Assembly: GCA_001799565.1 (NCBI GenBank)
Contig: MGTS01000002.1
Coordinates: forward strand, 1-64,000
DNA: 64,000 nt
Source: Elusimicrobia bacterium GWA2_51_34
GTDB taxonomy: Bacteria; Elusimicrobiota; Elusimicrobia; Elusimicrobiales; UBA9959
Direction: 5' to 3'
The notes beneath the pieces are model-generated. The model ran no database searches and was not told the origin of the DNA. It saw nothing but the letters and a program-made list of their open reading frames with translations. Positions 54,707 to 60,580 of this stretch are shown here, one piece after another (positions within the stretch are counted from its first letter, which is position 1; every line of letters starts with the position of its first letter). The translations under genes and the position numbers were made by a program.

Positions 54707-54724
54707 ACTGTCTAGCCTCCGGCT

Positions 54725-54757
54725 GTGCCGTAACAGACGCTACGCGTATCAGACGGC
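54725..54757 (-). repeat. 33-nt dispersed hairpin (copy 3, inverted)
   Basis: Read on the - strand it starts GCCGTCTGAT and ends TACGGCAC. Inner stem ACGC-GTA-GCGT, outer stem GCCGT/ACGGC. It lies in the gcvT leader, 19 nt upstream of the ATG and next to the GGAGG, so its folding could affect gcvT translation. Confidence 0.8.
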
Positions 54758-54873
54758 CTTCTGGCGGGTTTTGGGGGCCCGTGTATATTCTTTTATAACA
54801 AAATTGAGCGTGCCGGGGCAAGGGAACCGGGGGAATCAACAATTCTTATGTTTCCCGCGAGCAGGTTTGGAAA

Positions 54874-55644: not shown

Positions 55645-55656
55645 AGGTTAGATGTG

Positions 55657-55764
55657 TAGCAATTTGGACGCATAGCAATTTAGAGGCATAGCAGTTTAGA
55701 GGGTTCAGGTATCCCAAGTTGCCTTGCCTCCATATTGCTATGCATCTAAGTCGCTATGCCTCTA
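55657..55764. repeat. Paired 16-bp arrays, right arm forming the lpd stop
   Basis: Left: TAGCAATTTGGACGCA, TAGCAATTTAGAGGCA, TAGCAGTTTAGAGGG (55657-55703). Right: TGCCTCCATATTGCTA, TGCATCTAAGTCGCTA, TGCCTCTA (55725 onward). The right arm is the inverse complement of the left and includes the lpd stop codon (55762-55764). Confidence 0.88.
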
Positions 55765-57276
55765 CTTATTGAGCGCCTCGTGCACCGCTTCCGACATGGT
55801 GGGGTGGGCGTAAATTATTTCTTGCAGGTCCGCGCGCTTCAGTTTCATTTTAACCGCCAGCGCTATAAGATGTATCAGTTCCGTGGCCGGGCCGCCTACT
55901 ATCTGCGCGCCCAGCACGGTTTCGTCCCCGGCGTCAAACACCAGCTGCACAAAACCTTCCGTATCACCGGTGGCGATCGCCTTGCCGATGCCCGCAAAAA
56001 ATGCCCTTGAGGTTTTCACCGCTATGCCACTTGCTTGTGCCTGCGCAATGTTCAAGCCCACCGTGCCTACTTCCGGCCAGGCGTAAACGCATTTAGGCGC
56101 TATGCCGGCGTCAAAAGTTTTTTTGGCGCCGAAAATATTTTCGGCCGCTATTTCTCCCTGGCGGGTAGCGGAATGCGCCAGCGTGGAAATTCCGTTGATA
56201 TCGCCCACGGCGTAAATATCATCCGAGGCGGTTTGCATAAACTCGTTTACTTTAACGCCTTTTCCGTTCCATTCAAGCCCCAGCGTTTCAAGCCCCATTC
56301 CAGACAGGTCCGCAACTCGTCCCGCGCCTACCAGTATTTCTTCCGCTTTAAGCTGCGTTCCATCTTCCAGCGTTACGGTTTTAAGGCCACGCGAAATTTC
56401 AAGTTTAACCGCCTTTTTTCCGAAGTGGAACTTGACGCCGCGTTTTTCAAATGAGGAGCGCACCGCGCGCGTCACCTGCGGATCTTCTCCCGCAAGAATG
56501 TCCGGCAGAAGTTCTAAAACACTTGCTTCAACACCCATTGCGTTAAAGAAACACGCGAATTCAAGCCCTATCACGCCGCCGCCCACTATAAGGATGGAGC
56601 CCGGCAGGCGCGGCAGATCAAATATCCGGTCGGAATCAGTAAGCTGCGCTTTGAATTCCGCGAAAGGTGCTGGAAAACCGGGCCTGGTTCCGGCGGCAAG
56701 CACCGCGGCGTCAAACCGTTTTTTTATGGGGCCTGCCCCGCCCTTTTGGCACAGGGAGTGTGGCTTAATCCCTCCAGCTATATTTCCCGCACCAGCAGAT
56801 TGCCCCAAAAGAGCGGGGCCCTGAGGTGTAGCCCCACCACCCGCTTGCCCGACTTTGTCGGGTCCTCCCGGCCCCGAAGCGGGTGGTGGGGTAGTTATTG
56901 TAGCTTCGCCTTTTCCGGTGAAGGCGGCCCTGCCGCGTATCACCTCGATTTTTTTAGTCTGAAAAAGTTTTTCAAGCGAAGCGCGCAGTTTAAGCACCAC
57001 AGTGGAGCGGCGGGCTTTCACTTTTTCCCAGTCCAGCATGGAGGGGGAAAAACCGGCGTCAGAGCCGTCTTTCAGCAGTTCGCGCAGGCCTTCAAAGGCG
57101 TGCACGCGGCGGCCTGTGTCTAAAAAAGTTTTTGAGGGAATACAACCGCGGTTGAGGCAGGTGCCGCCGAAATCACGGGCTTCAACTATTGAGACTTCCG
57201 CGCCCAGTTCTTTAAGGCGCAGCGCCGCCGGGTAGCCGCCGGGGCCGGAACCTATCACTATTACTCTTTTAGACAT
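55762..57276 (-). CDS. lpd: Dihydrolipoyl dehydrogenase with an in-frame palindromic insertion
   Basis: About 504 residues against a usual 460-475. FAD site GSGPGGYPAALRL, redox Cys pair GGTCLNRGCIPSK, NAD site ILIVGGGVIGLEFA, and the C-terminal catalytic His-Glu in YAHPTMSEAVHEA are all present, so the enzyme core is intact. Extra residues (from about TPPPASGP to KGGAGP) lie between GKGEATIT and KKRFDAAVLAAGTRP, encoded by two palindromes at 56735-56819 and 56832-56891. It supplies the L-protein for glycine cleavage. GGTGG precedes ATG 57276. Confidence 0.92.
   Translation of the reverse strand: MSKRVIVIGSGPGGYPAALRLKELGAEVSIVEARDFGGTCLNRGCIPSKTFLDTGRRVHAFEGLRELLKDGSDAGFSPSMLDWEKVKARRSTVVLKLRASLEKLFQTKKIEVIRGRAAFTGKGEATITTPPPASGPGGPDKVGQAGGGATPQGPALLGQSAGAGNIAGGIKPHSLCQKGGAGPIKKRFDAAVLAAGTRPGFPAPFAEFKAQLTDSDRIFDLPRLPGSILIVGGGVIGLEFACFFNAMGVEASVLELLPDILAGEDPQVTRAVRSSFEKRGVKFHFGKKAVKLEISRGLKTVTLEDGTQLKAEEILVGAGRVADLSGMGLETLGLEWNGKGVKVNEFMQTASDDIYAVGDINGISTLAHSATRQGEIAAENIFGAKKTFDAGIAPKCVYAWPEVGTVGLNIAQAQASGIAVKTSRAFFAGIGKAIATGDTEGFVQLVFDAGDETVLGAQIVGGPATELIHLIALAVKMKLKRADLQEIIYAHPTMSEAVHEALNK
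56735..56819. repeat. Palindromic insert B within lpd
   Basis: GCCCCGCCCTTTTGG (56735-56749) pairs with CCAAAAGAGCGGGGC (56805-56819), one mismatch, around a 55-nt loop. It is in frame inside lpd and encodes part of the extra segment, including GPALLGQSAGAGN. Confidence 0.75.
56832..56891 (-). repeat. Palindromic PPP...GGG element within lpd (copy A)
   Basis: CCCCACCACCCGCTT (56832-56846) pairs perfectly with 56877-56891. An inner CCCGAC-TTT-GTCGGG hairpin lies at 56848-56862. Read on the - strand it encodes PPPASGPGGPDKVGQAGGG. It shares the CCCACCACC/GGTGGTGGG ends and peptide frame with copies at 58553-58625 and 60274-60343. Confidence 0.85.
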
Positions 57277-57307
57277 TTTTTCCACCTACCTTGATACTAG
57301 TGATTTT

Positions 57308-57337
57308 GCCTATGGCCTATGGCTTAAAGCTTATGGC
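57308..57337. repeat. Heptad array (GCCTATG type), single arm
   Basis: GCCTATG, GCCTATG, GCTTAAA, GCTTATG, GC, between lpd and the AsmA-like gene. The unit is the same as at 49123-49152. Confidence 0.8.
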
Positions 57338-57349
57338 AAACGATTAGCT

Positions 57350-58630
57350 CTATTCATGGATGTAATTAAAAAACAGTTCATTAAGCGATTTGAGCGCGGC
57401 GGTAAGTTTTCCATTAAGCGTTGTTGAAAGCGCAGGTGTAATTTCCGGTCTTGCCAGCGGCCCGATGGCAGCTAGCTTTAGACCATTCGGCCCGATCTTC
57501 GCTTCAAGGCGCGAATTGACGGAGCGCGCGGCGCTGTCAAAGGCCAGGTCCGCGCTCAGATTAATAAAATTTGAGTCTAGCTTTATATCCTTGAAGGAGA
57601 TTGCCGAGTTTCTAAAACTGAAAGCGGCTTTTAGTCTTTGGACTTCTATGTCGTATATACGCGGCACCGGCTTGCCCATCACGGCGGAAAAAAGTTCAAG
57701 GCCTTTGGTCAGCGTTTGTCTGGCGGAGTTTTCGCTTCCCGGGATATAAAGGTTTTCCGCCTCCAGCCGCGCGGAGTAATTTTTTTCCCTGGTTTTAGAA
57801 CGCATATTAAAAAGTTCACAGTCAGCCCGGAGTGCGGCCAGCGTGATGGCGCCGTAAGAGGCGTTGTCCGCCTCAAATGAACCCTTGAGCGAGGTCAGCC
57901 CGCCGTAGTCAAAGTTGGCGCTGGTTTTAAAGCTGACTCCGGAACTTAACAGTTTTCCCGCCACGGCGCTTTTCAGCAGACCTTCAAATTCGGCGGTATA
58001 ATTCCCGCCGGACGAAGAATAGTGCAGCAACCTGAGATTGGAGTTTTCGAACGTGAAATCCCGCCCTGAAGTGCCCATGCTCACCTCAAGCCGGGCGTTT
58101 TCAAGCGCCAGCTCTCCGGTGTTCCATGTAACATAAAGGCCCTGTGTGGTTTTAGGCAGCAGGGCCAGCAGGTCTTCAAAATCCCAGCGGCCGGCGTTTT
58201 CCCGCAGTTTGAATACGGGGTCTATAAAACTGACTTTCGCGAAATAAACCCGCTTTTTTAACAGCGCGCGCAACTCGGGGCGGATTACGGTCCGGCGGGC
58301 GCAGAAAAATTCTCCGGCCTTAAAAGAAGGCCGCCTTGAAACACAGACGTTTTCAATGATCACGCCTTTTAAGGGAGAGAATGATATTCGCTTGAACCGT
58401 ATTTCCCTGCCCAGTTTTTGGCCGGCAGTGGAATTTATCCGTTCTGTGAGGTAAGTCGAAAATTGTTTATATTTGACATGAACGAACAACGCCCCGCCCA
58501 AACAAATCAGCAAGAACACAGCCGCGATAATTTTTGAAAGCCGTGTTTTAACCCCACCACCCGGACGCCCGCCTGCGGCGGGCGTTGCAGATGAGGCGTC
58601 TTTGTCCGCCTGTCCGGGTGGTGGGATCAT
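57350..58630 (-). CDS. Short AsmA-like envelope protein with an element-derived N-terminus
   Basis: About 426 residues. A transmembrane helix (about 35-55, IIAAVFLLICLGGALFVHV) precedes a beta-rich periplasmic part with the AsmA opening LTERINSTAGQKLGREIRFK and ISFSPLKGVIIENV. The first 27 residues (MIPPPGQADKDASS to RPGGGV) come from a palindromic repeat element (58553-58625). ATG 58630 lies 6 nt after a TATAAT box, so the mRNA would begin at or near the start codon. An upstream start at 58666 is less likely. Confidence 0.75.
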   Translation of the reverse strand: MIPPPGQADKDASSATPAAGGRPGGGVKTRLSKIIAAVFLLICLGGALFVHVKYKQFSTYLTERINSTAGQKLGREIRFKRISFSPLKGVIIENVCVSRRPSFKAGEFFCARRTVIRPELRALLKKRVYFAKVSFIDPVFKLRENAGRWDFEDLLALLPKTTQGLYVTWNTGELALENARLEVSMGTSGRDFTFENSNLRLLHYSSSGGNYTAEFEGLLKSAVAGKLLSSGVSFKTSANFDYGGLTSLKGSFEADNASYGAITLAALRADCELFNMRSKTREKNYSARLEAENLYIPGSENSARQTLTKGLELFSAVMGKPVPRIYDIEVQRLKAAFSFRNSAISFKDIKLDSNFINLSADLAFDSAARSVNSRLEAKIGPNGLKLAAIGPLARPEITPALSTTLNGKLTAALKSLNELFFNYIHE

Positions 58631-58642
58631 GGTTCTATTATA
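58553..58642 (-). promoter_or_regulatory. Palindromic PPP...GGG element carrying a -10 box and start codon (copy 2)
   Basis: CCCACCACCCGGAC (58553-58566) pairs perfectly with 58612-58625; inner GCCCGCC-TGC-GGCGGGC at 58567-58583. On the - strand TATAAT (58642-58637) is followed by 6 nt and ATG (58630). The same TTGTCTATAAT-N6-ATG arrangement, with CGCGGGCGG further upstream, is found at 60344-60380. There is no -35 consensus. Confidence 0.7.
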
Positions 58643-58691
58643 GACAACCCCGCCGCCCGCGCGCAAATCGGAGACACCGGACGTAGCGATT

Positions 58692-58825
58692 TTTTTAAAA
58701 TGTCATGGTAGCGGCAAGTAGAAATGTCATGGTTTGAGGTAAACTAACCCTTCAGGCACCTAGCCGGGAGGGATTTAATGGAGCAACTAACCATGTATTC
58801 GAAAGCAGAAATGACACAAACATAA
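58692..58825 (+). mobile_element. Insertion-sequence 5' end with a 15-codon transposase stub
   Basis: Two AAATGTCATGGT copies (58698-58709 and 58722-58734, 24 nt apart), then AGCCGGGAGG and ATG 58778 opening MEQLTMYSKAEMTQT and a TAA at 58823. The layout matches the inverted end at 1-110. The short peptide resembles the first residues of DDE transposases, and later fragments in shifted frames (KKEKQSRLI) would fit the next segment. I read it as a decayed IS. Confidence 0.55.
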
Positions 58826-58848
58826 AAGGTCGAAAAACATGATAAAAA

Positions 58849-59052
58849 GTGAAGAAAGAAAAACAGTCAAGGCTAATCATCGGAAGCTTTATCTTAAAAC
58901 CTGGGCTAAATCACCTTGGCTTGCCTGCGGAACTCCCGGTATTTAAGTCGGCGCCCAAAGTTCAGCAAATTTGCGGTCCACCGGACGATGACTGCCAACT
59001 TGATCTGTGGGCTGACTTATACGAAGAAATAAACCCCGCCTCCGACAACTAA
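58849..59052 (+). other. Short open frame of doubtful coding status
   Basis: 67 codons in another frame from the transposase stub upstream. It contains KKEKQSRLI, which could be a shifted transposase fragment, and an acidic C-terminus (DDDCQLDLWADLYEEI) that I do not recognise. There is no Shine-Dalgarno. It is probably part of the same decayed element, or chance. The rest of 59053-59288 has no gene apart from the 33-nt hairpin. Confidence 0.25.
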
Positions 59053-59117
59053 CTCCCGTACTCCGCCAAGCGGCCGGAAAGCTACGTAAAAATTTAATAA
59101 AAACACCCCGCTTTTGG

Positions 59118-59150
59118 GCCGTCTGATGCGCATCGCGCTCGATACGGCAC
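59118..59150 (+). repeat. 33-nt dispersed hairpin (copy 2)
   Basis: Starts GCCGTCTGAT and ends TACGGCAC. Inner stem GCGC-ATC-GCGC, outer stem GCCGT/ACGGC. It lies between the decayed IS and the FkbM gene. Confidence 0.8.
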
Positions 59151-59288
59151 GGCCATAGGCCAGTATTATAGCGAGAGGGGAAGACTTTTTACAAATTTTT
59201 CAGGAGGCCGGAAGCTTCAGGCAGGGGGGAAACTGACGATAACGGACCTTACGTACTACAGATAAAACAGGTCTTTTCCTTTTATCAA

Positions 59289-59978
59289 TTATTTCTCAAT
59301 GGTATCTATCCATCCATTGCAACTGCCATCAAGCATGTTTTCAACAGAATCAAATCCGCCTAAGACCCCCGACTTTTCCAGTTTTGAAAGCAGTTCGTTT
59401 TCTCTTCCCTGAAATTGCTTAAGCTTGGAGGAATGGAATTCAATGTAGAATCTATCAACATATTTTATCGTTCCATCGGCAAACATTTTATCTAAAACTT
59501 CATACTCCGCACCTTCGATATCCAAACTTATAATTATGAAATCATTTACGGAAAACTTGCGACATAGCCATTGGCCGAAATCAAATGATTCCACAGTTAT
59601 CGTTTTTGGCTGCTTAATCGTGCGGTTGTTATACAAGCTGCTTGTTGAGTCATATTTTGATAAAATAAATTCCACGGTTCCATTTTTATTCCATATCGCC
59701 TTGTTTATGACAGTGATGCCGGGCATTCTTTTCAGATTTTTAATTTTATAAGGGTTCGCTTCGATTGCAAATATTTTCCAGGGATATTTTTTATATAAAC
59801 CGGTTTTTTGAAATGCCAATAAGCTTTCTCCATTATGCGCTCCCCCGTCAATAAAAATATATTTTTTTGTTCTGGGCCCTGCATAATACCAGATGGAAAT
59901 AAATAATATTACTAATGTGAATAATATTGTCATTGCATGCTTTTTAATGTTTTTAAAAGTGTCTTTGTGCCGGAACAT
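59289..59978 (-). CDS. FkbM-family methyltransferase, membrane-anchored
   Basis: 229 residues: N-terminal transmembrane helix (about 15-33), then a Methyltransf_21 (FkbM) domain with FIDGGAHNGESLLAF (SAM site), FAIEANP and VNDFIIISLDIEGAEYEVLD. Such enzymes usually O-methylate sugars or lipids at the cell surface. GAGGAAC lies before the ATG. Its codons are visibly richer in A and T than those of its neighbours, and decayed or mobile repeats lie on both sides, so it was probably acquired by transfer. Confidence 0.85.
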   Translation of the reverse strand: MFRHKDTFKNIKKHAMTILFTLVILFISIWYYAGPRTKKYIFIDGGAHNGESLLAFQKTGLYKKYPWKIFAIEANPYKIKNLKRMPGITVINKAIWNKNGTVEFILSKYDSTSSLYNNRTIKQPKTITVESFDFGQWLCRKFSVNDFIIISLDIEGAEYEVLDKMFADGTIKYVDRFYIEFHSSKLKQFQGRENELLSKLEKSGVLGGFDSVENMLDGSCNGWIDTIEK

Positions 59979-60107
59979 AGTTCCTCTTGTGGTTTTCTAT
60001 TAGGGCTATGCACTTGATGCGACTATGCCCTGTGCGTTACGATTTGACAACTAAACTATGGGAACTGAGGCGACTTGCACGGCCTGTTGTGCAAGGGCCG
60101 CATTGGG

Positions 60108-60239
60108 GGGGACGCTGCTTACTTTCTTACTTATTTTAAAATGCCGCTTTGTAATCCTTGGTTAATTTTATGGCAACTTAAATCTTTTTGTCCTTCCGCT
60201 CACTGATCCACAACAAGTAAGAAAGTAAGCAGCGTCCCC
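60108..60239. mobile_element. MITE-like element with 25-bp perfect inverted ends
   Basis: GGGGACGCTGCTTACTTTC (continuing to 60132) is the exact inverse complement of 60215-60239. The 82 nt between hold no ORF. Total length 132 bp. It lies in the 602-nt gap between the FkbM and zinc-ribbon genes. Ends of this kind resemble repeats linked to REP-associated (Y1) transposases, but no such gene is in the window, and I could not confirm a target duplication. Confidence 0.75.
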
Positions 60240-60241
60240 TG

Positions 60242-60349
60242 TCACCCACCTATCTGCGGCTGATGGCCACTGACAGGTGGTGGGGGCACCCCACCACCTG
60301 TTTGCCCGTTTTGCTCCGGTTTAAGTGGATAATCAGGTGGTGGCATCAT
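60242..60349 (-). CDS. Free-standing PPP...GGG palindromic element with 35-codon ORF
   Basis: The element has CCACCACCTG (60291-60300) and its inverse (60334-60343), plus CAGGTGGTGGGG-GCA-CCCCACCACCTG at 60274-60300. On the - strand TATAAT (60361-60356) is followed by 6 nt and ATG (60349). The ORF reads MMPPPDYPLKPEQNG, QTGGGVPPPPVSGH, QPQIGG-stop. The promoter-to-ATG geometry and the peptide ends match the element at 58553. Whether it is translated is unknown. 60350-60580 otherwise has no gene. Confidence 0.4.
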   Translation of the reverse strand: MMPPPDYPLKPEQNGQTGGGVPPPPVSGHQPQIGG

Positions 60350-60580
60350 AATCTTATTATAGACAAGAACCGCCCGCGGTGGAAATAGCCCCCGCCCAGC
60401 TCTTTTGTCTTAGAGCTTCAACAGACAGGTTTGAACATGGCGTATAGAACTTTACCTCAATTTTATAAAAAATATTCCCGCCTTTGTGTTACAGCGATAT
60501 GGGCAAGTTTTTCAGGCGGTTGGGAACGTTAGGACTTGGGATAACTTACGGTAAGCGGCCTTATGCCTGCAACTTTCAGG

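Follow-up and report, generated by a model that had tools for sequence, protein, structure and literature searches.

The Rickettsia palindromic elements (RPEs) are repeats of 100–150 bp that insert in frame into genes and are inherited by orthologues (PMC3767692, PMC10969869). A second point of reference is the IS1031 group of the IS5 insertion sequence (IS) family, which has a TNA target and an exclusive 3-bp repeat (PMC12016507; quoted end GAACCTGTCTAGTATCT). Here we analysed the first 64,000 nucleotides of contig MGTS01000002.1 (hereafter the window) of Elusimicrobia bacterium GWA2_51_34, a metagenome-assembled genome (MAG) of 2.63 Mb in 43 contigs (hereafter G000), in which three loci carry short palindromes that can be read as PPP...GGG peptides. 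Our results reveal that these palindromes are real and are members of a mobile family with the ends NCCCACCACCYG...CRGGTGGTGGGN, as demonstrated by empty sites, target-site duplications and a nested insertion.

The window contains six copies of the end sequence CCCACCACC, where 0.27 would be expected, and none of 100 shuffles had six. The six copies form three opposed pairs (56833/56882, 58553/58617 and 60276/60290), which bears out the three palindromic loci with inverted ends that an earlier note on this DNA had placed at these positions. The inner hairpins and PPP...GGG frames that it described are likewise present at all three. Copy 1 lies in the gene for dihydrolipoyl dehydrogenase (E3), is read in frame as T-PPP-ASGPGGPDKVGQA-GGG and is bounded by a 3-bp target duplication (TAG/CTA, at 56829–56831 and 56892–56894). 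Copy 2, at the beginning of a DUF748 (AsmA-like) gene, is read as M-I-PPP-GQADKDASSATPAAGGRP-GGG-V; on the coding strand it lies between TGA and TTA, which match at two of three positions. Copy 3 is accompanied by a damaged copy, in which one arm is intact and the other is short of one ACC/GGT repeat; the frame of copy 3 continues across this damaged copy to a stop.

We examined 89 copies in total, of which 57 distinct copies from ten genomes were used to analyse target duplications. Identical 3-bp flanks are present, outside the complementary terminal base pair, in 43 of these 57; by chance, as measured on the window, 2.3% would have them (P ~1e-58). The duplicated triplets are TAA (12), TCA (10), TGA (8), TTA (7) and others (6), i.e. 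TNA in 37 of 43. A 5-bp duplication was also considered and rejected: the outer bases agree in only 17–20 of the 43 copies, which indicates that the rule is 3 bp. Copies in the outgroup also have a 3-bp duplication, and a few copies elsewhere have 4-bp repeats. In one case, a 45-nt element (duplication CGG) is nested within a 75-nt element (duplication TAA).

Empty sites were also found. Five E3 orthologues run straight across the insertion site at the DNA level, the inserted protein segment is missing from E3 orthologues in the other genomes searched, and the E3 reading frame of G000 is intact except for a 51-aa insert. The DUF748 gene of the sister species G002 retains the empty site as ATG|AAAACGCGGC. 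Comparing orthologues with and without the insert, as the earlier note had proposed, shows that the PPP/GGG segment is absent from the relatives of E3, PheT and dihydropyrimidinase and from the DUF748 gene of G002. The PPP...GGG segments are thus not ancestral and copies do occur in relatives, so that neither of the two outcomes named by that note as speaking against it was found.

The family extends well beyond the window. Pattern searches of G000 recovered 15 intact CCACCACC...GGTGGTGG palindromes and 63 half-sites, and reading of the half-site loci gives ∼33 elements, a figure in which degenerate copies are not exhaustively counted. The further copies in related genomes that were to be expected of a mobile element were found: among 120 relatives, eight genomes besides G000 have the strict pattern, all from its own taxonomic family (five genera including that of G000), and the sister family has none. 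Copies also occur in Omnitrophota. A scan of ∼85,000 species genomes with a stricter form of the pattern returned 42 stretches, all but four of them from Elusimicrobiota and Omnitrophota. Of the four exceptions, three come from a single Deltaproteobacteria MAG (RIFCSPHIGHO2_01_FULL_43_49) and the fourth from a Planctomycetales MAG. The last is possibly mis-binned, because an Omnitrophota copy occupies the same kind of ThiI-like gene, apparently at the corresponding position. An Rfam search of the elements gave no match.

Many copies lie inside genes. Using element-free reconstructions of reading frames, we found 39 copies that are 25 or more codons from the ends of a frame of 200 codons or longer. 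Of these, 37 are multiples of three in length (P = 7e-16); for the copies elsewhere, the figure is 32 of 50. The host proteins supported by family matches are unrelated to each other and include E3, PheT, DnaX, NadC, Mrp, QueA, CCA/poly(A) polymerase and dihydropyrimidinase, as well as SpoIID, polysaccharide deacetylase, TilS, Mur ligase, iPGM, type III pantothenate kinase (coaX), an HI0933-like protein and others. Homologues of PheT and E3 lack the element peptide. When the dihydropyrimidinase is aligned with D-hydantoinase, a gap of exactly 14 residues, the length of the element peptide, falls at the position of the 39-nt element plus its 3-bp duplication. The main coding frame gives x-T-PPP...GGG, and a minority frame gives PTT...GWW (comB, HI0933-like, queA and metallo-hydrolase genes); other copies lie in intergenic DNA or in other frames. 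Insertions at the start codon, as in the DUF748 gene, are also present in NadC, CoaX and probably an Omp85-like gene. Together, the lengths, the unrelated hosts and the element-free orthologues support the suggestion of palindromes inserted in frame in the manner of RPEs. The family accounts for odd Pro/Gly insertions in proteins of Elusimicrobiota and Omnitrophota.

The elements are 27–195 nt long (with few exceptions 27–96 nt, mostly 27–81 nt), and almost every copy has one, two or three inner hairpins. In nearly all, 10–12 of 12 positions of the terminal arms are complementary; from a fixed CCCACCACCYG, the outer arms continue into variable but still complementary sequence. The folds are very stable. 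Among six copies of 78 nt, changes on both sides are seen at 13 of 29 pairs and 94% of cells pair, with a covariation score of 0.36 compared with 0.165 when shuffled and at most 0.138 when slid. The comB genes of G007 and G024 share the same inserted element; both strands of one of its hairpins have been rewritten, so that the length differs by 3 nt and the frame is kept. A hemW insertion is common to G007 and G017. These shared insertions and the covariation indicate that copies persist over speciation with the fold maintained, which may be due to selection or to hairpin-templated repair. Because the inner hairpins appear to drift in sequence yet stay paired, structure seems to be the conserved feature, probably serving transposition or replication of the DNA, or RNA stability. 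Separately, a tandem repeat, GTGACACTGGCCTGTCGCGGGCCTATGGCGCTGTCCGCGACT, lies beside or within elements at three loci (L003, L041 and L047, in TPR, CCA-polymerase and queA genes); it is another palindrome family that nests with this one.

Taken together, we consider it highly likely that the elements are non-autonomous palindromes, similar to miniature inverted-repeat transposable elements (MITEs), that are inserted at TNA by a transposase acting in trans and reside in frame in genes. Such a transposase would cut the NCCCACCACCYG ends and use a TNA triplet as the insertion site, where 3 bp would be duplicated. Genic copies would survive only where element plus duplication is a multiple of three and the frame stays open throughout, and a surviving insertion would usually add a flexible peptide, x-PPP-(flexible)-GGG, to its host. 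As TGA is a good target, 'ATGA' start codons would be hit repeatedly, which would result in N-terminal tags and the false appearance of a built-in start. The elements are far too short to encode a transposase. From the rule of the IS1031 group (TNA target, exclusive 3-bp repeat), we infer a DDE transposase of this IS1031-like type, acting in trans, as the likeliest mover.

Several results weigh against this scenario. Of the 57 copies, 14 lack a perfect 3-bp repeat, some being decayed and a few having 4 bp. No autonomous element with these ends, and no transposase enclosed by CCCACCACC copies paired at IS spacing, was found in the ten genomes and extra loci; candidates for an autonomous parent of 1–3.5 kb contained host genes only, in those whose genes were read. 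PF01609 is absent from G000, and PF13586 from 61 genomes including G000. With no such transposase found in G000, the copies there may therefore be relics or may be moved by an unrecognised enzyme. A more tentative idea, which we regard as possible but doubtful, is that the mobilising enzyme reads the short terminal repeat together with a folded body (cruciform or single-stranded) of free sequence. The element would then be common to Elusimicrobiota and Omnitrophota, and perhaps to other phyla as well, its hairpins would be kept by structure alone, and disordered peptides would be added to essential proteins as it spread.

The earlier note had also attached a promoter and start site to the element and suggested that it might be self-expressing or gene-activating. 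The sequences themselves are as described: copies 2 and 3 have in common a nearby CGCGGGCGG and, immediately outside the palindrome, TTGTCTATAAT, 6 nt and ATG, and this is what could suggest a composite mobile element whose own promoter and start codon switch genes on where it lands. However, the unit lies outside the target duplication and precedes the DUF748 orthologue in the element-free G002, where TTATCTATAATAAAGCCATG leads directly into the gene (box form TTATCTATAATAAAGCC-ATG), which rules out a composite element for copy 2. The sister G001 has TTATCTATAATGGAGCC-ATG before its orthologue; in relatives further removed, similar TATAAT-like boxes lie 6–10 nt upstream of the DUF748 ATG. There are only four TTGTCTATAAT in the genome, only two of them next to an element, and the unit is present at none of the other copies examined. 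Leaderless starts look part of the normal grammar of G000, because TATAAT-N5-8-ATG occurs 163 times compared with 79 for the reversed control, an enrichment of about twofold that suggests frequent leaderless transcription in the lineage. The insertion point of copy 2 is the TGA of 'ATGA'. The promoter–start unit belongs to the host genes and not to the element, and a gene-activating composite is very improbable. The start beside copy 3, behind which the frame is short and ends at a stop, is by analogy probably the host leaderless start of a now truncated gene. This argues for caution in assigning neighbouring host promoters to an element.

The conserved hairpin structure could also point to palindromes of the repetitive extragenic palindromic type (REP, and its REPIN form), copied through single-stranded hairpins by a REP-associated tyrosine transposase (RAYT; Y1, HUH). 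Y1/RAYT-like genes were indeed found in all seven element-bearing genomes searched (two to nine each; six in G000). However, Y1 enzymes are not known to make a target duplication, whereas a 3-bp duplication is present here. REPs are extragenic and these elements are intragenic, and no examined RAYT gene is flanked by CCCACCACC; those studied in detail have their own unrelated inverted repeats (e.g. GGGGACG...GCTT). We therefore regard RAYT copying as improbable. Greater weight, though still that of an unlikely explanation, is given to the possibility that, following an old insertion, selection has kept the palindromes mainly for a function in RNA or protein (as attenuators, mRNA stabilisers or disordered linkers), and that they are not selfish DNA. 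Vertical retention with compensatory change and the very stable folds are consistent with such a role, but insertion sites differ among species, most orthologues lack the element, the hosts are unrelated and two frames are used. Since many proteins have Pro/Gly linkers and CCA/GGT is a simple repeat, the PPP/GGG segments might finally be ancestral or convergent low-complexity linkers that fall into palindromic codons by chance. The empty sites rule this out, and dispersed identical ends, duplications, intergenic and other-frame copies and the nested copy also speak against it, so that we give it next to no credence. What chance does produce is illustrated by five matches to a looser pattern in viral contigs, which lack duplications and read as a CAHHLLPF-type protein that we take, from its residues, to be GTP cyclohydrolase (folE coding sequence); these five are chance background.

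Several other repeats lie near the elements of the window. Abutting copy 1 is an unrelated palindromic insert with arms GGGGCCCCGCYCTTTTGG.../...CCAAAAGGGCGGGGC (also GGCCCCGCYCTTTTGG/CCAAAAGGGCGGGGC), whose family has a length of about 91–96 nt and further copies at G000:C37 (L214) and G002:C22 (L215). Nested tandem and inverted GCATAGCA/TGCTATGC repeats (55649–55764) occupy the interval between an exonuclease III-like gene and the E3 gene. A 47-nt inverted repeat pair (77%), CTAGCCTCCGGCTGTGCCGTAACAG... (54712–54758 and 59117–59163), resembles a string, CTAGCCTATGGCTGTGCCGTAACAGG, that flanks an element in L020. The inverted repeat GGGGACGCTGCTTACTTTCTTACTT at 60108–60239 is similar to repeats (GGGGACGTTGCTTAAACG) that flank a RAYT/Y1 transposase gene at G000:C37, and is probably a REPIN-like element.

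Coordinates of the elements, host genes and adjoining features in the window
Feature	Position	Strand	Basis
Element copy 1, 60 nt, in the dihydrolipoyl dehydrogenase (E3) gene	56832..56891	-	Perfect arms and target duplication
E3 (lpd), host gene of copy 1	55762..57285	-	Alignment to PDB and to orthologues of relatives on either side of the insert
Second palindromic insert, unrelated, abutting copy 1, in frame	56732..56828	-	~90 nt missing from orthologues
Element copy 2, 75 nt, just behind the DUF748 (AsmA-like) start codon	58552..58626	-	Arms 14/14; empty site in G002
DUF748/AsmA-like host gene of copy 2	57350..58630	-	Orthologues in most family members; PF05359 weak, below cut-off
TTGTCTATAAT, 6 nt, ATG: native leaderless promoter of the DUF748 gene, outside the element	58628..58647	-	Kept in element-free G002
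Element copy 3, 57 nt, one end mutated	60289..60345	-	MM-PPP-DYPLKPEQNGQT-GGG
Damaged fourth copy, in tandem with copy 3	60244..60285	-	Sequence
TTGTCTATAAT, 6 nt, ATG before copy 3	60347..60366	-	Layout as at 58628-58647; no other family copy has the unit

Full-text searches on palindromic elements together with Elusimicrobiota or Omnitrophota returned no recognisable earlier description of these elements (subscription literature lay outside the scope of this search). As far as we found in that literature, the family is previously undescribed. Its clean duplications, empty sites, and nested and inherited copies make it directly testable how selfish DNA enters essential proteins without lethality.

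When compared with known systems, the elements have the terminal inverted repeats and the target-site duplication of MITEs, and they share the TNA target and the 3-bp duplication with MITEs of the IS1031 subgroup of IS5. By contrast, neither the parent IS nor a cognate IS5-type transposase in the genome was found, the ends CCCACCACC differ from GAACCTGTCTAGTATCT and the elements are much shorter than usual MITEs. They resemble REPs and REPINs in being short hairpin repeats present many times per genome, but differ from them in their target duplication, their intragenic position and the lack of linkage to the RAYT genes examined. The closest likeness in behaviour is to the palindromic elements of Rickettsia and Wolbachia, which are also mobile palindromic repeats lying in frame in unrelated genes, with a tolerated peptide and inheritance by orthologues. 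Here, however, the ends are different, most copies are 27–81 nt rather than 100–150 nt long, the 3-bp TNA duplication is clear and the inner hairpins are modular. The hosts are Elusimicrobiota and Omnitrophota MAGs rather than Rickettsiales, and none of the 42 stretches of the large scan is in Rickettsia or Wolbachia. By size, duplication and hosts, and not by sequence comparison with RPEs, this is a separate family: the in-frame coding palindromes of PMC3767692 and PMC10969869 are those of Rickettsiales, and the one described here is a distinct family of Elusimicrobiota and Omnitrophota.

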